Source: Embleya scabrispora
GTDB taxonomy: Bacteria; Actinomycetota; Actinomycetes; Streptomycetales; Streptomycetaceae
Length of the DNA: 64,000 nt
Direction of reading: 5' to 3'
NCBI RefSeq assembly: GCF_002024165.1
Contig: NZ_MWQN01000002.1
Span: forward strand, 930,001-994,000
This document shows positions 5,469 to 31,735 of this stretch, one piece after another (within the stretch, counting starts at the first letter, position 1; the number at the start of each line of letters is the position of its first letter). A model generated the notes under the pieces. That model was not told where the DNA came from, made no database searches, and saw only the letters and a list, made by a program, of their open reading frames with translations. A program made the position numbers and the translations under genes.

Positions 5469-7220
5469 ATGGCACCACCACGTCCCCCCAACACTGCAGC
5501 CGATACCTCGACTTCGCGCCGACCCCGGCCCGGACCGCGCCGCTGGGCCGCGCTCCTCGCCGCGGCCGCCACGACGGCCGCGGCGAGCCTGCTCGTCCTC
5601 GCCCCGTCCGCGCCCGCCGCCGGCACCGCCGAACTCGTGGTGAACGGCGGCTTCGAGACCGGCCTGTCCGGCTGGACCTGTTCCGGCGGCAGCGGTCGCG
5701 CCACCACCACCCCCGTACACACCGGAACCGGCGCCCTCCAGGCCACCCCGGCCGGCGGCGACAACGCCCGCTGCAGCCAGACCGTGGCCGTGCAACCCGA
5801 CTCCGACTACACCCAATCCGCCTGGGTCCAGGGCGCCTACGTCTACCTCGGCGCGAGCGGCACCGGCACCACCGACGTGTCCACCTGGACCTCCGCGGCC
5901 ACCACCTGGCAAAAACTCACCACCACCTTCCACACCGGCGCGCGCACCACGAGCGTCACGATCCACCTCAACGGCTGGTACGGGCAGCCCGCCTACTACG
6001 CCGACGACGTCTCGCTCGTCGGCCCGGGCGGATCCACCACGATCCCGGGCGTACCCACCGGCCTGACCGTCGCCGGCACCACCGCACGCAGCGCCTCGCT
6101 GTCCTGGACCGCGGTGCCCGGCGCGACCTCGTACGACGTCTTCCGCGCCGACACCAAGGTGGCCACGGTCGCCGGAACCTCCGCCGAGATCCCGGGACTC
6201 ACCCCGCAGACGAGCTACACCTTCTCCGTCGCGGCGACCAACAGCGCCGGATCGTCCGCGCGTTCCGCCCCCGTCACCGCCACCACCGCGCCGGACGGCC
6301 CCACCGGGCAGGACCCCACCGGACTGCCCAAGCGGGTGATGACCGGCTACTGGCACAACTTCGTCAACGGCTCCACGAACCTGCGCCTGCGGGACGTGCC
6401 CACGTCCTACAACCTGGTCGCGGTGGCCTTCGCCGAGGCCGACCGCACCCGCTGGGGCGCGATCACGTTCGGCGTGGACCCGGGCCTGTCCACCGCGCTC
6501 GGCGGCTACACCAACGCCGACCTCAAGGCGGACATCGTCGCGATGCATGCCCGAGGACAGAAGGTCATCCTGTCCGTCGGCGGCGAGTTGGGCGCGGTCT
6601 GGGTCGGCGACAACGCCTCCGCCGACATGTTCGCGAGCACCGCCACGGCGCTGCTGCGCGAATACGGCTTCGACGGCGTGGACATCGACCTGGAGAACGG
6701 GGTCAGTCCCACCTACATGGCCACGGCGCTGCGCGCCATCCGGGCCCAGGTCGGCACCTCGCTGATCATCACGATGGCCCCGCAGACCCTGGACATGCAG
6801 ACCACCCAGACCGCCTACTTCCAACTCGCCCTGAGCATCAAGGACATCCTGACCATCGTCCACATGCAGTACTACAACTCCGGCACCATGTTCGGCTGCG
6901 ACCAGAAGTTGTACGCCCAGGGCGGCGTCGACTTCCTCACCGCGCAGGCGTGCATCCAACTCCAGGGCGGCCTGCGCCCGGACCAGGTCGCCCTCGGCGT
7001 ACCGGCCACCGGACGCGCGGCCGGCAGCGGATACGTCTCGCCCGGCGTGGTGAACAACGCGCTGGACTGCCTGGAGTCGGGCACCGGTTGCGGCGGCTAC
7101 CGGCCCGCGACCACCTGGCGCGGCATCCGGGGCGCGATGACGTGGTCCGTCAACTGGGACGCGACCGCCGGGTACGCGCTGGCCAACACCATCTCGGCCC
7201 ACCTGCGCACGATGCCCTGA
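5469..7220 (+). CDS. Secreted GH18 chitinase with carbohydrate-binding and FnIII domains
   Basis: 583 residues. The start is fixed by GGGAGG eight bases before the ATG. Residues 1-50 are an export signal with Arg pairs, a long hydrophobic run and a PSAPAAG end. Next comes a beta-sandwich carbohydrate-binding domain (LVVNGGFETGLSGW to YYADDVSLV, about 50-195). A fibronectin type III domain follows (VPTGLTVAGTTARSASLSW, about 195-285), then the GH18 barrel (about 295-583). The catalytic motif FDGVDIDLEN (about 401-410) contains the DxxDxDxE signature, the last Glu being the acid/base. The enzyme cleaves chitin outside the cell. Likely DasR control comes from the dre-like site upstream. Confidence 0.93.
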   Translation: MAPPRPPNTAADTSTSRRPRPGPRRWAALLAAAATTAAASLLVLAPSAPAAGTAELVVNGGFETGLSGWTCSGGSGRATTTPVHTGTGALQATPAGGDNARCSQTVAVQPDSDYTQSAWVQGAYVYLGASGTGTTDVSTWTSAATTWQKLTTTFHTGARTTSVTIHLNGWYGQPAYYADDVSLVGPGGSTTIPGVPTGLTVAGTTARSASLSWTAVPGATSYDVFRADTKVATVAGTSAEIPGLTPQTSYTFSVAATNSAGSSARSAPVTATTAPDGPTGQDPTGLPKRVMTGYWHNFVNGSTNLRLRDVPTSYNLVAVAFAEADRTRWGAITFGVDPGLSTALGGYTNADLKADIVAMHARGQKVILSVGGELGAVWVGDNASADMFASTATALLREYGFDGVDIDLENGVSPTYMATALRAIRAQVGTSLIITMAPQTLDMQTTQTAYFQLALSIKDILTIVHMQYYNSGTMFGCDQKLYAQGGVDFLTAQACIQLQGGLRPDQVALGVPATGRAAGSGYVSPGVVNNALDCLESGTGCGGYRPATTWRGIRGAMTWSVNWDATAGYALANTISAHLRTMP

Positions 7221-7264
7221 TCGTCGGGCACGGATGACGGATGACGGATGACGGGCGAGGGGCG

Positions 7265-7873
7265 CTACACCGGGCGGATGTCCGCCCACAGCGCCACCGA
7301 GCCGGGTTCGAGCGGCGCCGCGTGGTCGGCGGCGCCGCTCGTCCACCACCGGCCCCGCCCCGGTCGCAGCGCCGGGCCGGGGCCGGTGTTCGTTCCGCGC
7401 CCGGACAGCAGGTACAGCACACCGGCGTGCCCGGCGGGCAGCGGCACGGGAGCGTCGACGCGCCGGACGTCGGCGGTCCATCGGCCGCGCCGGGTCATGA
7501 TGTTGAGCACCAGGACCGGGCCGCCGTCGCCGAGCAGGCGGGCGCGGAGCGCGTGATCGCCGGAGAAGGCGAACGGCACGGCGGGATGGTCGAGCCGATG
7601 ATCGAGTGCCGCCGCGCCGGCCGTACCGGCGCCGTCCGCGATCAGGTGCACGCCCTCGCCCGCCAGGAGGGTGATGGTGCGGTCGACCCCCGGGAACGGC
7701 GAGAACGGCCCGTCGGCGGCGATCGTCGCGATGCTCGCCCGCCAGCCGAAGTCCGCCGAGCCGCCGTCCGGGCCCGCCGATCCCTCGCACGCGATCTCCC
7801 GCGTGTCACCGCCCCCGTTGCGCCACGGGCCGACGGGCAGCGTCTCGACGTCGAAGAGGTGCGTCAGCGTCAC
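7265..7873 (-). CDS. HutD/Ves family protein
   Basis: 202 residues from a GTG at 7873. HutD-family marks are the start LTHLFDVETLPVGPWRNGGG, then DTREIACEG, FGWRASIATIAADGPFSPFP, GVDRTITLLAGEGV and LNIMTRRGRW. The family has a bicupin fold. It occurs with histidine-utilisation genes in proteobacteria but often stands alone, as here, and its activity is not established. It is convergent with the chitinase, 44 bp apart, and lies downstream of the cupin gene on the same strand. Confidence 0.85.
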   Translation of the reverse strand: MTLTHLFDVETLPVGPWRNGGGDTREIACEGSAGPDGGSADFGWRASIATIAADGPFSPFPGVDRTITLLAGEGVHLIADGAGTAGAAALDHRLDHPAVPFAFSGDHALRARLLGDGGPVLVLNIMTRRGRWTADVRRVDAPVPLPAGHAGVLYLLSGRGTNTGPGPALRPGRGRWWTSGAADHAAPLEPGSVALWADIRPV

Positions 7874-7994
7874 GTGCGGGCCTGCTTCCAGGGGAATCGG
7901 GGCGGTGGGCTCGGGGCGACCGGGCCCGCCATCATGCCGGCCGCCGCGCGGGCATGTACGGGCATGTCCGCGCCGTGATCCCGACGCCGTCGCT

Positions 7995-8327
7995 TCACCC
8001 GTGCTTGGCGACGGTGAGCAGGACCGCCGAGTCCTCCAGGGCGTCCAAGCTGTGCCGGGACTGCGGTACGACCAGGAAGTCGCCCGTCCGCCCCTCCCAC
8101 GACGTCTCGCCGTCGATCAGAAGCACCCGCCCCCGCAACACGAGCAGGGTCGCCTCGCCGGGATTCTCGTGCTCGGACAGTGAGGTCCCCGCGTTCAGCG
8201 CGATCAGCGTCTGCCGCAACACATGTTCGTGGCCCCCGTACACGGTGTGCGCGCTGCGCCCCGTAGAGGCGGTGGCGGCCAGCTTGAGCAGTTCGCGGAC
8301 CTGGGCTTCCAACGAGAGCTTTTCCAT
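7995..8327 (-). CDS. Small cupin-domain protein
   Basis: 110 residues, a single cupin barrel: HTVYGGHEHVLRQTLIAL, then SEHENPGEATLLVLRGRVLL and TGDFLVVPQSRHSLDALED. The H-x-N-P-G-E and PQSRHSL blocks correspond to cupin motifs 1 and 2 with His/Glu ligands. Such proteins often buffer stress metabolites or act as small sensors, but no specific function can be assigned. The ATG at 8327 has only a weak ribosome site; a GTG 12 bases upstream would add four residues. Confidence 0.75.
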   Translation of the reverse strand: MEKLSLEAQVRELLKLAATASTGRSAHTVYGGHEHVLRQTLIALNAGTSLSEHENPGEATLLVLRGRVLLIDGETSWEGRTGDFLVVPQSRHSLDALEDSAVLLTVAKHG

Positions 8328-20890: not shown

Positions 20891-23221
20891 CTACGTCGGG
20901 TTGGGGCCCCGGGTGGTGAGGAGGTCGCGGGCGGTGAGGGCGGCGCGTAGGGGGCCCTGGCGGTCGGGGGCGTCGGGGCTTACGTGGAGCAGGGATTCGA
21001 TCAGGGCGAGGCGCTGGTGGACCGATTGGCGGCGGAGGAACAGGACGCCGGCGGTCTCGGTCTTGGAGCAGCCGCAGCGCAGGTACGCCTCGAGGGTGTC
21101 CACCAGGCCGGTGCCGCGGGTGGCGTCGGCGGCCAGCAGCGGGCCGAGTTGGTCCTCGACCAGGTCGGCCAGTTCCTCCGGGGGCAGCCCGTCCAGGAGG
21201 CGTTCGAGGGCCCAGTCGTCGGCGAGTACGGTTTCGGCGACGCCGGTGGGCCGGATCGGGTGCACCCGGCGGGCCAGGCGCAGTGTGTCCCGCGCGGCGC
21301 GCAGGCTGTGTCCGACCCGGGCCACGTCCCGCACGAGCGGGCCGAGGGCGGCGGTCGGCTCGGGGCCGGCGGCTGTGGGCAGGCCGAGGCGGTCGGCGAG
21401 TTCGGCGATGTGGGTGGGGCGGTCCAGGGCGATCAGGGCGTACGCGCCGCCGGGGCCGTCGCTGACCAGGCCGCGGCCGCCGCACGCGCGCAGGCCCTCG
21501 TACAGGGTGGTCACCGCCTGCACCGGGTCTGGCCGGCTCAGGGCGACGGTCGCCCACACGGCGGTGCCGGCCGGGACGAGGCCGCACACCGTCAGCCGCG
21601 CGGCCACCTCGCGCGGGGGCAGCGCGTCGCCGAGCAGCCCTTCGACGAGCTCCCGCCGCTCACGTCCCACCCAGCCACCACGGTCGGCGAGCCGCAACAG
21701 GGCGGGCGCGAACACCTGGGCAGCATGCTCGGCCACCTCCCGAGCGATCGCCGCTCCCGCGGTCGACCAGGGGCCGTCGGCGGGGGCGACATGGGGCGCG
21801 GCCACACCTGGCGTGGCCGGTCTGCGCGCGGTCTCGGTTGCGCCGGGCGTGGTGTCGGCCGCCAGGGGGTCGGCCGCGCCCGGCATGTGGGTGGCGTCGG
21901 TCGTGCGGGCGGTGCCCGGTGGCTGGGTTGCGGGTGTCGTGGTGTTGGCCGCGCTTGCCGCGCCGGGCATGTGGGTGGCGTTGGTCGTGCGGGCCGTGCC
22001 TGCTGTCCTGGTTGCGCCCGTCGTGGTGTTGGCTCTGTTGTGGTTGGCCGCGCTTGCCGCGCCCGGCATGTGGGTGGCGTCGGTCGTGCCGGCGGTGCCC
22101 GGTGGCTGGGTTGCGGGTGTCGTGGTGTTGGCCGCGCTTGCCGCGCCGGGCATGTGGGTGGCGTTGGTCGTGCGGGCCGTGCCTGCTGTCCTGGTTGCGC
22201 CCGTCGTGGTGTTGGCTCTGTTGTGGTTGGCCGCGCTTGCCGCGCCCGGCATGTGGGTGGCGTCGGTCGTGCCGGCGGTGCCTGGTGGCTGGGTTGCGGG
22301 TGTCGTGGTGTTGGCCGCCTGGGGGTTGGCCGCGCCTGCCGCGCCCGGAGATGGGTTGGTGTCCCAGGCGCCGGACGTGCCCGCTGTCCTGGTTCCCCCG
22401 GTCGCGGCGCCGGCCGCGTTGACGCCTGCCGCGCCCGGCGATGGGTTGGCGTCCGACCTCCTCGGGGTGCCCGCTGTTCGCGTGGTGTCGGTCGCGCTCG
22501 GCGTGGTCGGCGGGTGGTTGGCGTTTGTTGTGTTTTTTGCCGTTGTTGCGTCGGGCGCGCTTGGCTTGGTTGCGCCCAGTAGTAGCCGCCCCCACAGCGC
22601 GCCCCTGAGTTCGACGCCGGCTTCGGCTGTCGGGGACCTTACGACCGAGGTCGGGTCGTCCGTGCCCGCGTACGCGGTGAGCGTTCCGTCCAGGGCTGCC
22701 AGGACTACCGGGCGGCCGGTGAGCGTGGACAGTGTGGTGGTGAGTTCCTCGACGCCGGCGCCTTTCGCCAGCACGCCGGACAGGGTTCGCACGATTCGGT
22801 TGACGTGGCGCAGCCGTGTCACCGCCGAGTCGAGGATGGCCGCGTTGACCGCCTCGGCGATCTCGACGAACGGGACGACGCCGCGCAGGACGACCAGCGG
22901 CAGACCCGCGTCCGCCGCCGCGCGAACCACGTCGTCCGGGACCTCGCGGAACGTACGCCCGACCTCCAGGGCCACCCCCGCCACGCCCGCCGCCGCCAAC
23001 TCCGTGACATAGCGTCGCCGCTCGCCCGCGTCCCGTCCGGCCAGACCCAGACCCGTCGTGAGCAGCAGTTCGTCGCCGCGCAGCAGCGGGGCGATCTCGT
23101 AGATCTCGCTGGAGTGCACCCAGCGCACCGGGCGATCCAGGTCCGCGTGCGGATCCGGTACCGCCGGGTCGGCTCCGCGCATCAGTGGATGGTCGAGGAC
23201 CGCGCGCAGGGACAGCGTCAT
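20891..23221 (-). CDS. PucR family regulator with a long Ala/Thr-rich tandem-repeat insertion
   Basis: 776 residues, about 260 more than usual. The N-terminal PucR sensor domain is clear: MTLSLRAVLDHPLMRGADP, VRWVHSSEIYEIAPLLRGDE, LLLTTGLGLAG, then LVVLRGVVPFVEIAEAVN. The C-terminus has the PucR helix-turn-helix LVDTLEAYLRCGCSKTETAG followed by RRQSVHQRLALIESLL. Between them, about residues 215-480 are low-complexity A/T/G/P/N sequence built partly from 61-residue repeats. ACGGAG five bases before the ATG fixes the start. The gene diverges from cytosine permease, 162 bp away, and is colinear with the catabolic genes. PucR proteins activate purine or pyrimidine use, so it is the likely local regulator. 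Confidence 0.88.
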   Translation of the reverse strand: MTLSLRAVLDHPLMRGADPAVPDPHADLDRPVRWVHSSEIYEIAPLLRGDELLLTTGLGLAGRDAGERRRYVTELAAAGVAGVALEVGRTFREVPDDVVRAAADAGLPLVVLRGVVPFVEIAEAVNAAILDSAVTRLRHVNRIVRTLSGVLAKGAGVEELTTTLSTLTGRPVVLAALDGTLTAYAGTDDPTSVVRSPTAEAGVELRGALWGRLLLGATKPSAPDATTAKNTTNANHPPTTPSATDTTRTAGTPRRSDANPSPGAAGVNAAGAATGGTRTAGTSGAWDTNPSPGAAGAANPQAANTTTPATQPPGTAGTTDATHMPGAASAANHNRANTTTGATRTAGTARTTNATHMPGAASAANTTTPATQPPGTAGTTDATHMPGAASAANHNRANTTTGATRTAGTARTTNATHMPGAASAANTTTPATQPPGTARTTDATHMPGAADPLAADTTPGATETARRPATPGVAAPHVAPADGPWSTAGAAIAREVAEHAAQVFAPALLRLADRGGWVGRERRELVEGLLGDALPPREVAARLTVCGLVPAGTAVWATVALSRPDPVQAVTTLYEGLRACGGRGLVSDGPGGAYALIALDRPTHIAELADRLGLPTAAGPEPTAALGPLVRDVARVGHSLRAARDTLRLARRVHPIRPTGVAETVLADDWALERLLDGLPPEELADLVEDQLGPLLAADATRGTGLVDTLEAYLRCGCSKTETAGVLFLRRQSVHQRLALIESLLHVSPDAPDRQGPLRAALTARDLLTTRGPNPT
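21881..22318. repeat. 183-bp in-frame tandem repeat inside the PucR gene
   Basis: Units begin at 21881, 22064 and 22247, exactly 183 bp apart. The first two are full length and differ at about one base; the third matches for about 70 bp and then diverges. Each unit is itself made of two related sub-units starting at GGCATGTGGGTGGCG. 183 is 61 codons, so copy-number change keeps the reading frame. On the plus strand the unit is strongly G/T-rich. Confidence 0.9.
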
Positions 23222-23383
23222 GGACACTCCGTCCGGAAGATCCGTCAGTATGGCGGTCACGGTGTCCGTTGTCACGACCCGCCCGGCCGAGGAACCTTCG
23301 GTGATCACCCCACCGTAGCTCCCACCGCAGCCCCCACCGCATTCCCCACAGCAGTGCTCCGCTCCGTCCCACCGGAGGTCTCC

Positions 23384-24796
23384 GTGGCAACCCTCGACCA
23401 ATCCGCGCAGCCCGCCCGCCCCGAGCGCGCGGTCGACCACACCCAGTCCCTCGAACCGGTACCCGACGACGCCCGCGACTCGACGCCCGCGCACCAGTTC
23501 TGGATCTGGGCCGGCGCCAACATCGCGCCGATCAACTGGGTCCTGGGCGCCCTCGGCATCGTGCTCGGCCTGGGACTGGTCGACACCGTACTGGTCCTGA
23601 TCGTCGGCAACCTGATCGGGATGGGCGTCTTCGGCCTGTTCGTACTGATGGGCCAGCGCACCGGCGTGACCCAGATGGTGCTGGCGCGGGCCGCGTTCGG
23701 TCGGCGCGGCGCGTACCTGCCCGCCGCCGTCCAGGGCGTGATCTCCGCCGGGTGGTGCGCCATCAACACCTGGATCGTGCTCGACCTCGTGATGGCCCTC
23801 CTCGACAGCGTCGGCTACGAGGGCGGCAACGGCACCAAGGTCGTGGTCGTCCTGGTGGTGATGGCCGTCCAGATCGCGATCGCCGCGTCCGGCTTCGCCG
23901 CCATCGCCGGCTTCGAGCGCTGGACCGTACCCGCCACCCTGGTCGTACTCGCCGCGATGACCGCGGTGGCCTGGACCCGGCTCGACATCGACTGGGGCCA
24001 CGCGAGCACGTTGAGCGGCGGCGACCGCTGGTCGGCGATGAGCACGGTGATGACCGCGATCGGCGTCGGCTGGGGCATCACCTGGTTCGCCTACGCCTCC
24101 GACTACTCCCGCTTCGTCCCGCGCACCACCTCCCGCCGCAAGCTGTACGCGGCCAGCGTGCTGGGCCAGTTCGTCCCCGTGGTCTGGCTCGGAGTGCTCG
24201 GCGCGTCACTGGCCACGGTGAACGCGAAGGCCGACCCGGGCCGGCTGATCGTCGACTCGTTCGGCCCGCTCGCCATCCCCGTGCTGCTGCTCGTACTGCA
24301 CGGGCCGATCGCCACCAACATCCTCAACCTGTACAGCTGTTCGCTCTGTGCGCAGACCCTCGACATCAAGGTCTCGCGGCGCGTGTTGTCCTGCCTGGTG
24401 GGCGCGTTCGCCACCGTGTTCACGCTGTTCCTGATCTTCCGGGCGAGCCTGGCACACACCCTGGACACCTGGCTCGCGGGCATGGTCACCTGGGTCGCGC
24501 CGTGGGCTGCGGTGATGCTGGTGCACTTCTACGTGTTCGCCCGACAGCGCGTGGACGTCGCCGCGCTCTACGCCGCGCCGCGTCGCGGCCTGCTCGCCGA
24601 CGTGCGCTGGTCGGCGATCGTCGCGCTGCTGTGCGGCATGGTCGCCACCTGGTGCTTCGAGTACGGCGTCCCCGAGGCGCTGCGCGGCCCGGGCGCCCGG
24701 GCGATCGGCAACGTGGACCTGTCGTGGCTGGCCGGCGCGTTGGTCGCGGGCGGCCTGTACCTCCTGCTCGGCCGCCGCGAGCGCGTTACCCGCTGA
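23384..24796 (+). CDS. codB: Cytosine permease (NCS1 family)
   Basis: 470 residues from a GTG with GGAGG five bases upstream. A polar start of about 40 residues is followed by about 12 membrane helices. NCS1 features: FWIWAGANIAPINWVLGALG in helix 1, GVTQMVLARAAFGRRGAYLP, INTWIVLDLVMALLDS, and the periplasmic-face block WGITWFAYASDYSRFVPRTT. This family takes up cytosine, purines, hydantoins or allantoin with a cation. Cytosine is inferred from the cytosine deaminase gene 35 bp downstream. Divergent from the PucR regulator, which likely controls it. Confidence 0.85.
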   Translation: MATLDQSAQPARPERAVDHTQSLEPVPDDARDSTPAHQFWIWAGANIAPINWVLGALGIVLGLGLVDTVLVLIVGNLIGMGVFGLFVLMGQRTGVTQMVLARAAFGRRGAYLPAAVQGVISAGWCAINTWIVLDLVMALLDSVGYEGGNGTKVVVVLVVMAVQIAIAASGFAAIAGFERWTVPATLVVLAAMTAVAWTRLDIDWGHASTLSGGDRWSAMSTVMTAIGVGWGITWFAYASDYSRFVPRTTSRRKLYAASVLGQFVPVVWLGVLGASLATVNAKADPGRLIVDSFGPLAIPVLLLVLHGPIATNILNLYSCSLCAQTLDIKVSRRVLSCLVGAFATVFTLFLIFRASLAHTLDTWLAGMVTWVAPWAAVMLVHFYVFARQRVDVAALYAAPRRGLLADVRWSAIVALLCGMVATWCFEYGVPEALRGPGARAIGNVDLSWLAGALVAGGLYLLLGRRERVTR

Positions 24797-27590: not shown

Positions 27591-28445
27591 ATGTACCCCT
27601 CCATCACGCCTCCCCGCCGGGTCAGGATCGGTGACGCCGCCGCGTTCGCCGGGACGACCCCGCGTGCCGTCCGCCACTACCACGGGATCGGCCTGCTGCC
27701 GGAGCCGGAACGAGGCGCAGACGGCCGCCGCCGCTACGGCTACGACGACATGATCCGCCTGCTGTGGATCCGCAGGATGGCGGCGGTCGGTGTCGGCCTG
27801 GACGACATGCGGACCGCCTTCGACGAAGCCCGGGACGAGGCCCGGGACATCCAGGAGATCCTGAGCAGCCTGGAGGAGACCCTGGCGGCGCGGGAGGCCG
27901 AAATCAAACGTCAGCGCGCGGCCGTCCAGCGCCTGCGAGCGCTGGGCAGCCCGCTGGGGCTGCTCTCCGAATTGGTCACGGACCGGCTCGGCCACCTGCC
28001 CCCGGGCGCACTGCGCCCCACCGACCTGAACACCCTGCTGGTCACGGAGCGAGTCTTCGGCCCGTTGGGCGCCGCCATCCAGGCCGGCGTGTTTATCGTG
28101 CTTGCCACCCACCCCGATCTGAGGGCCGAGGACGACCGTCTCGACGCCGCCGAGGCCGCCCTCGACGACGGCGTCGACCCCCACGACCCACGCGTCGAAG
28201 AACTCGCCGCCCAGCGATGCGCGCAACAAGTCGCCCTGGAACAGGCCATGGAGGCAGCCGGGCTCGACGCGGCGGAAGAAAAGCGCTTCGAGATCTACGA
28301 CGCCGACCTGACAGGAGAGGAGGACACAGGGATGAGCCCCTTCCAAGCGATCACCAAAATGCCCTACGACTTCTCTCCCGCCCGGATGCGCTGCATGGAA
28401 CTCACGGCACAACTCCTCGCCGACACCCACTCCGCAGACCACTGA
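27591..28445 (+). CDS. MerR family transcriptional regulator
   Basis: 284 residues from the ATG at 27591. The winged helix-turn-helix is RIGDAAAFAGTTPRAVRHYH plus GIGLLPEPERGADGRRRYGY (about 10-50). A dimer coiled coil follows (ILSSLEETLAAREAEIKRQR, about 92-112). The C-terminal 160 residues form a long helical effector domain with VFGPLGAAIQAGVFIVLAT, and no Cys metal site is apparent. It resembles streptomycete MerR proteins with organic-ligand C-termini. The frame is open further upstream to 27453, but that stretch is an Arg/Gly-rich run with no ribosome site. It stands alone, next to the large repeat array. Confidence 0.82.
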   Translation: MYPSITPPRRVRIGDAAAFAGTTPRAVRHYHGIGLLPEPERGADGRRRYGYDDMIRLLWIRRMAAVGVGLDDMRTAFDEARDEARDIQEILSSLEETLAAREAEIKRQRAAVQRLRALGSPLGLLSELVTDRLGHLPPGALRPTDLNTLLVTERVFGPLGAAIQAGVFIVLATHPDLRAEDDRLDAAEAALDDGVDPHDPRVEELAAQRCAQQVALEQAMEAAGLDAAEEKRFEIYDADLTGEEDTGMSPFQAITKMPYDFSPARMRCMELTAQLLADTHSADH

Positions 28446-28569
28446 TCGCCCGCGCCCGGAACCGAAGCACCCCGGCAGCCGGTCACGTCCATAAGACGCC
28501 TGTCCGGCCTGAACCAAGAGCGACGACACCACTGGCCTACGGGGGGATTCCGAACTGACCGCTCACACC

Positions 28570-31080
28570 CCAGCGAGACGCGCGCTGAGCTCGGCGAAAT
28601 CCGCGTGGCAGCGGCAGGGGCACGGTCGGTTCGCCGAGGGGCCTTCCGGAGTGGGTCGGGTGCGCGCGGCGGGGTTGCGTCTTGATCGGGGGCGCCGGTG
28701 CGGGTGGGGTCAGAGTTGCAGGGCCGGCCGCCCCCGGCGTTCGGGGCCCGGAGACCCGGGCGTTCCGGCGAGACGCGCGCGTTGGTCGGCGAAAACCGGC
28801 TGGCAGCGCTGGGTAGAGGGGCGAGCCGGGTCGAGTCCCCTGGCCGACCTTCCCGAGTGGGTCGAGTGCTCTCGGCGCGCGCCGCGCTTGTGGTTGCGGG
28901 TGGCCGGTGCGGGGCCGGTCCGAGTCGGTGATGGGCCGCCGCCAGCGTTCGGGGCTCCAAGACCCGAAGCCCCCGACGAGATCGGCGCGTTGCTCACCGA
29001 AAACCGGCTGGCAGCGGGGGGCAGGGGGGCGGGTCGGGTCGTGTTCCCCGGCCGGCCTTTTCGAGGCGGCCGGGTGTTTCCGGCGGGCGTTGCGCTCGCG
29101 GTTGCGGGTGGCCGGTGCGGGGCCGGTCCGAGTCGATGGTGGGCCGCCGCCAGCGTTCGGGGCTCCAAGACTCGGGAGTTCCGGCGAGATGGGCGCGTTG
29201 GTCGGCGAAAACCGGCTGGCAGCGGGGGGCAGGGGGGCGGGTCGGGTCGTGTTCCCCGGCCGGCCTTTTCGAGGCGGCCGGGTGTTTCCGGCGGGCGTTG
29301 CGCTCGCGGTTGCGGGTGGCCGGTGCGGGGCTGGTCCGAGTCGATGGTGGGCCGCCGCCAGCGTTCGGGGCTCCAAGACTCGGGAGTTCCGGCGAGATGG
29401 GCGCGTTGGTCGGCGAAAACCGGCTGGCAGCGGGGGGCAGGGGGGCGGGTCGGGTCGTGTTCCCCGGCCGGCCTTTTCGAGGCGGCCGGGTGTTTCCGGC
29501 GGGCGGTGCGCTCGCGGTTGCGGGTGGCCGGTGCGGGGCCGGTCCGAGTCGATGGTGGGCCGCCGCCAGCGTTCGGGGCTCCAAGACCTGGGAGTTCCGG
29601 CGAGACGCACGCTTTGCTCAGCGAAAACCGGCTGGCAGCGGCGGGCAGGGGAGCGGTCGAGTCGGTCTGCCGGGAAGCCTTCCCGAGGGGGCCGGGCGTT
29701 TTTGGCGGGCGGTGGGCGAGTGAGTGACGAAGGTTCACGAACCCGGATCGCGTGGGGTGTTGTTGCCTCAATGTGTAAGAAAACCGCAGGTCGGCGCGAA
29801 GGGGAAGCTGTTTCGGGTGCCTCGGGATCCGGTTTCGGTCCCGCCGGCGCCCGCCTGGCAGTTTCGGTCGTCCTCAACGGTCTGCGGGAGGCCGAAGCGC
29901 ACGCAACCGACTCGACCGGGCAGTTTCGGCCGCTCTGACCGGCGTCGAGAAGACGAGGCACACGAAACCGGCACTCGGCACCCGATCTTCCGTACCGACC
30001 ACGCGAAACCGCAGGTCACCAGACCTCAAGGCTGTGCACCACCCATCGCGATCCGGTTTCGAACCCCAACTCCTGCCGAAACACTCGGAATCCACTCGAG
30101 AACGCGCCTCGGGAGACCAACCCGACCCCTCCTCCGCTGCCAGCCGGTTTTCGCTGAGCAAAGCGTGCGTCTCGCCGGAGCTCCCGGGTCTCGGAGCCCC
30201 GAACGCTGGCGGCGGCCCATCACCGACTCGGACCAACCCCGCACCAGCCACCCGCAACCCAAAGCGCGGCGCGCGCCGAAACGCCCGGCCCACTCGGGAA
30301 GGCACCCCGGCGGACTCGACTGCACCGCCCTCCCTGCCCGCCGCTGCCAGCCGGTTTTCGCCGACCAACGCGCCCATCTCGCCGGAACTCCCGGGGCTTG
30401 GAGCCCCGAACGCTGGCGGCGGCCCACCATCGACTCGGACCGGCCCCGCACCGGCCACCCGCAACCGCGAGCGCAACGCCCGCCGGAAACACCCGGCCGC
30501 CTCGAAAAGGCCGGCCGGGGAACACGACCCGACCCGCCCCCCTGCCCCCCCGCTGCCAGCCGGTTTTCGGTGAGCAACGCGCCCATCTCGCCGGAGCTCC
30601 CGGGGCTTGGAGCCCCGAACGCTGGCGGCGGCCCATCACCGACTCGGACCAGCCCCGCACCGGCCACCCGCAATCACAAGCGCGGCGCGCGCCGAGAGCA
30701 CCCGACCCACTCGACAAGGCCGGCCGGGGAACACGACCCGACCCGCCCCCCTGCTCCCCGCTGCCAGCCGGTTTTCGGTGAGCAACGCGCCGATCTCGCC
30801 GGAGCTCCCGGGTCTTGGAGCCCCGAACGCTGGCGGCGGCCCATCACCGACTCGGACCAACCCCGCACCAGCCACCCGCAACCCAAGGCGCAACGCCCGC
30901 CGAGAACGCCCGGCCCACTCGGGAAGGCACCTCGGCGGACTCGACCCGACACCCGGTGCCAGCCTGTTTCGCCGACCAACGCGCGCGTCTCGCCGGAACT
31001 CCCGGGCCTCGGAGTCCCGAACGCCGGCGGCGGCCGAGCCACCGACTCTGACCGGCCCCATACCGGCCCCGTCCGGCCGA
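28570..31080. repeat. Mirror-symmetric array of about 11 copies of a 208-bp repeat
   Basis: The anchor GAAAACCGGCTGGCAGCGG occurs on the plus strand at 28791, 28999, 29207, 29415 and 29623, exactly 208 bp apart, with a degenerate copy at 28596. Its complement has matching anchor bases at 30152, 30359, 30568 and 30776 (207, 209, 208 bp apart), plus a degenerate copy at 30970. The arms face each other around about 29.89 kb. Variants appear in mirror order. Because 208 is not a multiple of three, reading frames rotate from unit to unit, so the long open frames here are not repeat proteins. No gene is supported anywhere in 28446-31342; 28446-28569 and 31081-31342 show nothing recognisable. Confidence 0.92.
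29728..30110. repeat. Central spacer of the mirror array, with its own short repeats
   Basis: The segment between the two arms is not the 208-bp unit. It holds a degenerate direct repeat with an offset of about 224 bp: AAACCGCAGGTC near 29782 and 30006, and GATCCGGTTTCG near 29826 and 30050. CAGTTTCGG occurs near 29859 and 29921. GAAACCG or its complement recurs several times. No open frame here has ribosome site, codon pattern or recognisable protein. Confidence 0.6.
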
Positions 31081-31342
31081 GGTGCAACGCCCACCGCAGG
31101 CACCCCGGCCCACTCGGTGCGGTGGCCCGGCCCGCCCCCGCCGCTCTTGGCGGCCTTGGCCTGTCGGTCGGGGTGCGGTCGGGTGCCCCGTTGGCCGACC
31201 GTGACGTCCACCGCCGACGCGCTGCGGAGGAGCGCTGTGTCCTTACCGGTTGCGGTGGTTGCGCGGTGCGGTGTGGCCATGTGTGGGGCCGGCCTTACGA
31301 ACCACCGGGTCGCCCGCGGCGTTGCTGCCGTGTTTCTTTGGG

Positions 31343-31735
31343 CTATCGGGTGAGTTGGGCTTGGAAGATGGCGGGGTTGAAGTATGCCTTGGCCTCGCGG
31401 ATCAAGCCGGTGGTGTCGTCGAGGTCGTAGATGTTGATGCCGGACCAGTTGACGGGTTTGCCGTCCGAGGTGACGGCGGCGCCGTACCAGGTGACGGCGA
31501 CGTGGTTGCCGACGGTGTGGGCTTGGGTGGGGGTCAGGCCCAGGAAGGGGTGGAAGTTGGGTATGACGGAGGCGATGAAGGCGTGGATGGCGGGGCGTCC
31601 GGTGATCGGCGGAGTGCCGATGGGGTCGTGGAAGACGCCGTCTTCGGCGAAGGCGGCGGCCCAGGTGTCGGCGTCGCCGTCCTGGGAGGCGCGGAAGAAC
31701 CGGAGGACGGCTGGGGGCATTGCCGGGAAGGTCAT
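31343..31735 (-). CDS. SnoaL/NTF2-like protein
   Basis: 130 residues, one cone-shaped NTF2-like domain: AVLRFFRASQDGDADTWAAA, FAEDGVFHDPIGTPPITGRP, AIHAFIASVIPNF, then VGNHVAVTWYGAAVTSDGKP and GINIYDLDDTTGLIREAKAY. Members act as small isomerases or cyclases, or as ligand-binding units. The gene lies 106 bp downstream of the MFS transporter in the same direction and may share its transcript, so a link to the TetR/MFS pair is possible. No catalytic residue can be assigned with confidence. Confidence 0.82.
   Translation of the reverse strand: MTFPAMPPAVLRFFRASQDGDADTWAAAFAEDGVFHDPIGTPPITGRPAIHAFIASVIPNFHPFLGLTPTQAHTVGNHVAVTWYGAAVTSDGKPVNWSGINIYDLDDTTGLIREAKAYFNPAIFQAQLTR

Follow-up and report, generated by a model that had tools for sequence, protein, structure and literature searches.

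A dispersed family of inverted tandem-repeat arrays around a conserved two-module centre in Embleya

The window analyzed here, a 64,000-nt stretch of Embleya scabrispora contig NZ_MWQN01000002.1 (positions 930,001 to 994,000), holds an array of ~208-bp units in two inverted arms. We found that this array is not a single site but one member of a non-coding repeat family dispersed through the genome. A DNA search with the 208-bp unit returned 161 matches in the E. scabrispora genome (G000; 10.96 Mb, 8 contigs), and 25 clusters from this search together with nine from profile searches gave 34 mapped copies. All 34 share one layout, in which inward-facing A units (~208 bp) stand on both sides of a centre of ~430 bp made of two tandem ~215-bp B modules; in L025, L031, and L152, the centre has an interruption or a partial deletion. 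The original prediction had described one giant inverted repeat on one chromosome, which is too narrow, as at least 43 copies are spread over several contigs. At a probability of roughly 55%, we read the family as a foldback-like non-autonomous element that forms a platform of predicted sites for a protein and whose arms grow and shrink; its mobility and its binding protein are what we infer.

Copies in the E. scabrispora genome and the array in the window

Searching G000 with a box of the centre yielded 17 further places, of which eight contain nine copies whose centre is accompanied by one or more units (two of the copies adjoining), four have centre fragments, and five have no unit or centre match. 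In total, G000 carries at least 43 copies and at least seven relics; the relic count takes in the four places with centre fragments and three relics found by synteny (L176, L178, and L179) and leaves out unit fragments near L022 and L156, and the box places on C1 at 4.93 Mb, C2 at 1.01 Mb, C3 at 0.99 Mb, and C6 were also left out. Relics seen in the family as a whole include centre-less ones (L066, L164, and L176), solo units (L178 and L179), and a degenerate one (L170). The first 34 copies fall on four contigs (20 on C1, 10 on C2, three on C3, and one on C4), where C1 is the 7.0-Mb contig, with copies scattered from 0.4 to 6.6 Mb, and C2 is the 1.25-Mb contig holding the window. Copies are enriched on C2 (10/34, p = 0.004), in a test made after the fact on the window's own contig. 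Excerpts of a 2026 report on the genus (PMC13152386) describe a 7.1-Mb chromosome and a 4.2-Mb secondary chromosome, so that C1 is probably the primary chromosome and C2 probably part of the secondary one; the repeat-related passages of that report do not mention the arrays of the present family.

Elements range from 0.6 to 3.2 kb, with arms of one to seven detected units, a single A unit per arm in minimal copies, and A-unit periods most commonly of 206–209 bp. Thirty-three of the 34 mapped copies are gene-free; a gene was called only in L031, where ~1.7 kb of unrelated DNA (6495–8240) interrupts the centre near its right end and carries an open reading frame (ORF) of 197 aa with no Pfam match. 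No tRNA was found in the window or in the 25 first loci, and no known RNA matched in the window at the Rfam gathering threshold. The 67 nearest flanking proteins show no common function, the commonest Pfam families reaching 4/67 among the 25 of 96 families listed.

By the A-unit profile, the window array extends from 28568 to 31129, slightly beyond the 28570–31080 of the original prediction, and consists of six plus-strand A units, the centre, and six minus-strand A units, with a full-unit period of 207–209 bp. Five GAAAACCGG anchors stand exactly 208 bp apart (28791, 28999, 29207, 29415, and 29623) and four CCGGTTTTC anchors follow at 30144, 30351, 30560, and 30768 (spacings 207, 209, and 208), just as predicted. 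Tandem Repeats Finder (TRF) reported a 208-bp period in 4.7 copies (score 1440) and a 209-bp period in 4.6 copies (score 1170), and a repeat search recovered inverted arms of up to 413 nt with up to 96% complementarity and the predicted outer spacings of 195 and 194. The outermost A units are degenerate and the innermost truncated, a truncation near columns 141–170 that is common to most other copies, and the centre overlaps the ends of both innermost units. The array was predicted to be non-coding, and a home-made codon-usage gene caller placed no gene inside it; its long ORFs arise because the DNA is about 72% GC. The exclusion of CRISPR also stands, the whole 208-bp period being repeated with no unique spacers. 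The array and its neighbors comprise the following features.

28568..28718, plus strand: outermost degenerate A unit of the left arm (unit profile, columns partly matched; 195-bp offset to the next unit)
28727-28932, 28935-29140, 29143-29347, and 29351-29556, plus strand: four full A units of the left arm, period 208 (repeat search, TRF, unit profile)
28791..29631, plus strand: GAAAACCGG without mismatch in five of six left-arm A units (unit profile)
29559..29722, plus strand: innermost truncated A unit of the left arm (164 model columns, unit profile)
29669..30113, minus strand relative to the family model: conserved centre, two tandem ~215-bp B modules (centre profile 358.5 bits; B-module period 215)
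29738..29752, plus strand: centre box 6, CGAACCCGGATCGCG, reverse complement of the ATCCGGGTTCG type (consensus and profile)
29781..29791, plus strand: centre box 5, AAACCGCAGGT, reverse complement of ACCTGCGGTTT (conserved blocks, profile)
29821..29838, plus strand: centre box 4, CTCGGGATCCGGTTTCGG (conserved blocks, profile)
29963..29974, plus strand: centre box 3, CGAAACCGGCAC (conserved blocks, profile)
30006..30016, plus strand: centre box 2, AAACCGCAGGT, 225 bp from box 5 in the window copy (conserved blocks, profile)
30047..30061, plus strand: centre box 1, CGCGATCCGGTTTCG (conserved blocks, profile)
30065..30216, minus strand: innermost truncated A unit of the right arm (unit profile)
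30144..30776, minus strand: GAAAACCGG without mismatch in four of six right-arm A units, reading CCGGTTTTC on the plus strand (unit profile)
30219-30423, 30426-30632, 30635-30840, and 30843-31034, minus strand: four A units of the right arm (repeat search, unit profile)
31040..31129, minus strand: outermost partial A unit of the right arm (unit profile)
27591..28445, plus strand: left flanking gene, outside the element, MerR-family regulator (gene caller; Pfam MerR)
31343..31735, minus strand: right flanking gene, outside the element, SnoaL-like protein (Pfam SnoaL_2)

The surroundings of the window copy (L014) are non-syntenic in the three other Embleya genomes (G001, E. hyalina NBRC 13850; G002; G003), the MerR orthologue being the only one of its genes matched. 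Elsewhere in the window, a 183-bp tandem repeat at 21873–22425 (TRF; 2.4 copies at 99% matches, 3.0 at 86%) falls in a long minus-strand ORF (20891–24001), where it encodes a repetitive Thr/Ala/Pro/Gly-rich linker; the protein of this ORF looks PucR-like.

Distribution, shared and empty sites, and exchange between copies

A centre-model search of 150 Streptomycetaceae genomes, run with stricter filters, matched three, all Embleya, and no other genus. Among the matches listed, the centre model accounts for at least 23 in G000, at least 23 in G001, one in G002, and none in G003, and the unit model for at least 150, 141, none, and one, respectively. The sole G002 copy (L150) is minimal, its degenerate centre being flanked by a single unit to the left and to the right, and adjoins an orthologue of the gene flanking G000 copy L153. 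At the L153 site in E. hyalina, three overlapping partial centre matches lie in tandem without arms (L175, 2767–3214). The G003 assembly consists of about 1650 contigs, and given this fragmentation and the tendency of repeats to break assemblies, the seeming absence of copies there is only weakly informative. The original prediction had proposed a search of the unit against its own genome and relatives; a plain DNA search of the own genome and 40 relatives also gave short, weak matches in nine of 37 non-Embleya genomes (25–109 bp, E 1.8e-5 to 6.2e-4), which we take as chance. An exact pattern search returned 25 stretches, 12 from E. hyalina and 13 with one exact match each in unrelated bacteria, and no match in viral contigs. 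A plasmid or phage origin was rejected, as blastn found no match in 72,556 plasmid and 50,697 phage records.

Many sites are occupied in both species: 12 of the 25 distinct E. hyalina loci examined lie beside or between orthologous flank genes (eight with both flanks, four at contig ends with one flank), and the flanking proteins at shared sites are 88–99% identical (mean per pair). L030 is probably a 13th such site, each of its flanks lying at an E. hyalina contig end with units (L183 and L184). Eleven sites are empty, with aligned flanks 10–821 bp apart and no unit or centre match between them: L171–L174 in G001; L119, L121, and L180–L182 in G002; L124 in G003; and L177 in G000. Neither G001 nor the more distant G002 has the G000 copies L018 and L028, and this favors their gain in G000; the remaining empty sites could be losses. 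At five sites, a copy is paired with a relic or pieces, or both genomes hold relics (L015/L170, L153/L175, L058/L176, L164/L178, and L050/L179). These counts derive from nine first synteny loci, of which three were clean empty sites (L119, L121, and L124), two held other DNA (L120 and L123), and the rest lacked one flank, and from 15 later ones with eight empty sites, five relics or pieces (L170, L175, L176, L178, and L179), and two contig ends with units (L183 and L184); in a synteny query of 17 loci, several had no usable flank pair in the other genome. In E. hyalina L050 (6749–7606), two half-elements flank a gene, and the corresponding G000 site (L179, 2490–3460) has the gene with a 79-bp unit fragment alone. 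The starts of G001 contigs C57 and C58 (L054 and L055) have identical unit, centre, and flank coordinates and therefore look like an assembly duplicate at a repeat break.

Comparison of these sequences indicates that copies probably exchange sequence. Centres of seven orthologous pairs are 75.7–79.3% identical (mean 77.4%), versus 75.2% for all G000/G001 pairs. Within a genome, the centres of L016/L012, L029/L030, and L054/L160 reach 91.9%, 95.5%, and 96.1% identity, and all six lie at sites that the two species share (L030 at contig ends), so that transfer between existing copies is the best explanation for their near identity. A-unit identity is 73.1% for orthologous copies, 74.6% for non-orthologous copies between species, 77.2% within G000, and 80.5–80.9% within one element (266 of 386 units, those with at least 140 matched columns). 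The centre tree left out three of the 34 own copies, whose centres are incomplete, E. hyalina copies without a near-complete centre, and the duplicates L055 and L165.

The arms are also changeable. In three of nine orthologous pairs, the centre is flipped relative to the flanks, the expected outcome of recombination between inverted arms. Outermost units diverge more from the consensus, and the phase of the outer end differs, by eye, at one orthologous site (L026/L054); together with the range of arm lengths, these features indicate that arms grow and shrink.

Conserved boxes in the centre and the A units

Across 48 centres (31 from G000 and 17 from G001), five blocks have a mean conservation of 0.93–0.95 (TCGAAACCGGATC, TTCGGTGACCTGCGGTTTTGTG, GTCGAGTGCCGGTTTCGTG, GCCGAAACCGGATCCCGAGGC, and CTGACCTGCGGTTTTCT), and a sixth, GATCCGGTTTCGTG, is seen in the consensus. 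Self-comparison of the centre consensus gives the best match at an offset of 215 bp (52%, versus 36% for the next offset), indicating that the centre is two tandem B modules, each with CGAAACCGG, ACCTGCGGTTTT, and CCGGTTTCG in that order. The boxes of the B modules and the single GAAAACCGG box of each A unit have an AAACCG core in common. Each centre holds 2.50 copies of CGAAACCGG on average, versus 0.03 in dinucleotide shuffles, and density inside the 34 elements exceeds that outside by ~330-fold for GAAAACCGG, ~83-fold for CGAAACCGG, and 20-fold for the bare AAACCG core. Near invariance of the boxes, together with few compensatory changes, argues for recognition by a protein more than for folding, and the AAACCG-core boxes thus suggest protein binding.

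At up to one mismatch, AAAACCGCAGGTCA occurs 89 times in G000, against none for a reversed control, and also 10 times in G002 and 20 times in G003 (reversed control 1 and 0), genomes with few or no arrays. Three box places in these two genomes (L202, L203, and L204) gave no unit or centre match, and isolated boxes of this kind may therefore have an additional role outside the elements. At L187 (G000 C1, near 3.403 Mb), two exact centre boxes lie 274 bp apart in the same orientation (2553 and 2827) at an element-free place.

The A units are polar. Their GC skew is 0.20 on the unit strand, and GGGNAGGG, the E. coli consensus of FtsK-orienting polar sequences (KOPS), occurs 120 times on the unit strand of 194 A units, versus 26.4 in shuffles and three on the opposite strand. 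It points toward the centre on both sides, in the window at 29019, 29227, 29435, and 29643 and, on the minus strand, at 30332 and 30540. The enrichment of this KOPS-like motif is real and serves as a lead, with no link to a translocase.

Competing readings and relation to known repeats

On the reading we favor, the element would be a passive cis platform whose AAACCG-core sites, about six per centre and one per A unit, would be recognized by a trans-acting DNA-binding protein. Whether itself a recombinase or transposase or a host factor working with such an enzyme, this protein would let copies enter intergenic sites. After insertion, A arrays would lengthen or shorten through unequal recombination or slippage, the centre would flip through recombination between the inverted arms, gene conversion among dispersed copies would homogenize them, and old copies would break down to relics that lack a centre, lack arms, or are single units. 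The ancestral form was probably minimal, with one A unit, a B-B centre, and one inverted A unit. Two foldback characters are present: inverted tandem-repeat arms surround a middle in all 34 mapped copies, and dispersed copies are accompanied by empty sites in relatives, 11 such places among the four Embleya genomes. The original prediction had offered four possible roles, and of these the relic of an unknown element fits best in that an element it appears to be; a lone relic it is not, the arrays forming a multi-copy family with gains, losses, and relics.

Several observations weigh against this reading. No helper gene was identified, the RAYT family (REP-associated tyrosine transposases, partners of repetitive extragenic palindromes, REP) being the single transposase family tested for, and no recognizable transposase lies in the examined copies; the genes inside L031 and L050 have no Pfam match, and the inner gene of L050 is also present at the same site in G000 beside a unit fragment only. 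Target-site duplications were not seen in five filled/empty pairs or at sites A and B, where the intergenic DNA is too diverged for them to be read. Across 25 copies there is no fixed outer end, the outermost units beginning at many phases, unlike ordinary transposons, and the centre rather than the ends is most conserved, which is unexpected if a transposase recognizes ends. Centres at orthologous sites resemble each other slightly more than the average pair does (ranks 9, 5, 7, 1, 14, 5, and 2 of 17), so that any exchange has not fully erased site history, and the box also occurs away from elements, five of the 17 G000 box places being element-free (L185, L187, L192, L199, and L201). The slightly closer orthologous centres, the isolated boxes, which may serve another role, and the probable 13th shared site weigh in both directions. 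As fixed termini were not found and target-site duplications could not be made out, we do not claim membership of the foldback class despite the foldback anatomy.

A host chromosome-organizing site, of centromere or loading type, is a possible though tentative alternative: a protein would nucleate on the B-B centre and spread or load along the polar A arrays of both chromosomes. Conservation peaks in the centre, both arms are symmetric and polar in skew and GGGNAGGG, and this combination keeps such a role a live rival. Sites persist in two species, copies are enriched on C2, and Embleya has a large secondary chromosome on which, in the excerpts of PMC13152386, parS-like sites were not found. 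On the other side stand the scatter of copies along C1, the sites empty in relatives, the relics, and the scarcity of matches in G002 and G003, even granting the fragmented G003 assembly. For the scaffold or chromosome-organizing role offered originally, the boxes suggest protein binding, and the scarcity in two Embleya genomes counters an essential role. More speculatively, the copies might represent a new kind of bacterial genome component, palindromic satellites built on a conserved two-module core, whose polar arrays on both chromosomes would be bound and travelled by a dedicated protein and kept by gene conversion, and which would serve as chromosome-organizing or replicon-coordinating sites gained in one Embleya clade. 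We consider it rather doubtful that the family is a satellite born of recombination, in which a palindromic array arose once without a transposase, was scattered by homologous or replication-based recombination, and was gene-converted, its boxes kept by copying alone; the lack of fixed ends and target-site duplications and the visible tandem growth, decay, and homogenization would suit such an origin, but symmetric copies at many unrelated intergenic sites with gene order kept are hard to obtain without an insertion enzyme, and conservation is blockwise rather than uniform, which points to protein recognition.

A source of long structured or double-stranded RNA, another of the original suggestions, found little support, and we regard it as distinctly unlikely. 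The inverted arms would pair if read through, the window centre gives a slightly better fold than shuffled sequence does (z -2.19; matched by 3 of 100 shuffles), and columns 10/76 of the unit alignment are doubly changed in 14 of 38 sequences, although these are 13 E. hyalina rows and L028 and largely follow species. By contrast, the A unit has a fold z-score of 0.10, double changes affect no more than 3 of 24 and 2 of 18 of the predicted pairs, and Rfam gave no match in the window. Flanking-gene orientation is near background, so there is no common promoter context, and a terminator between convergent genes was likewise rejected (10 of 33 classifiable copies convergent versus 46 of 255 background pairs, p = 0.10, not significant). 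An assembly artefact, which the original prediction had named as grounds for refutation, has a negligible chance: such repeats do break assemblies, and several E. hyalina copies stop at contig ends, but the layout recurs in all 34 mapped copies and in a second species that was assembled separately, and the dozens of copies differ in sequence and flanks, making an artefact very unlikely.

No described element of this form had been known to the original prediction, and literature searches found none. The nearest description appears to be Tetris, a foldback transposon of Drosophila virilis that, in the portions of PMC4079207 that treat it, has inverted arms with ~220-bp tandem repeats. It resembles the Embleya arrays in its long inverted arms, variable tandem-repeat number, variable non-coding middle, non-autonomy, arm expansion, and some homogenization, and differs in being eukaryotic, with an outer flanking domain and 8–10 bp target-site duplications (PMC4079207, same portions); in the Embleya family, the centre instead of the outer end is conserved, and neither a duplication nor a fixed end could be made out. 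Galileo-type foldback elements are alike in that tandem repeats in their arms hold extra protein-binding sites, and differ in having their own transposase with a THAP domain (PMC4079207, in part), none being known in the Embleya family. REP sequences, REPINs (REP doublets forming hairpins), and bacterial interspersed mosaic elements (BIMEs) are, in excerpts of PMC3116915, PMC2817692, and PMC3733652, dispersed, intergenic, palindromic, non-autonomous bacterial repeats that also form composite arrays, but REPs measure 20–40 bp (PMC3733652, in part), against ~208-bp units and 0.6–3.2 kb elements in Embleya. REPIN or BIME membership was rejected on this unit length and on RAYT (Y1_Tnp, PF01797), present in none of four Embleya genomes versus five of 14 control genomes. 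Plasmid centromere arrays and parS- or KOPS-type sites are likewise repeated, sequence-specific, and polar; what sets the Embleya family apart is that dozens of copies lie dispersed over the primary chromosome and further contigs, in a single genus so far.

Eukaryotes have described foldback elements whose arms consist of tandem repeats, and our literature searches found no counterpart in bacteria. With this family, the birth, growth, homogenization, and decay of satellite-like DNA become testable in a culturable bacterium, and the B module provides a bait for a candidate DNA-binding protein in a genus whose secondary chromosome is unusual.

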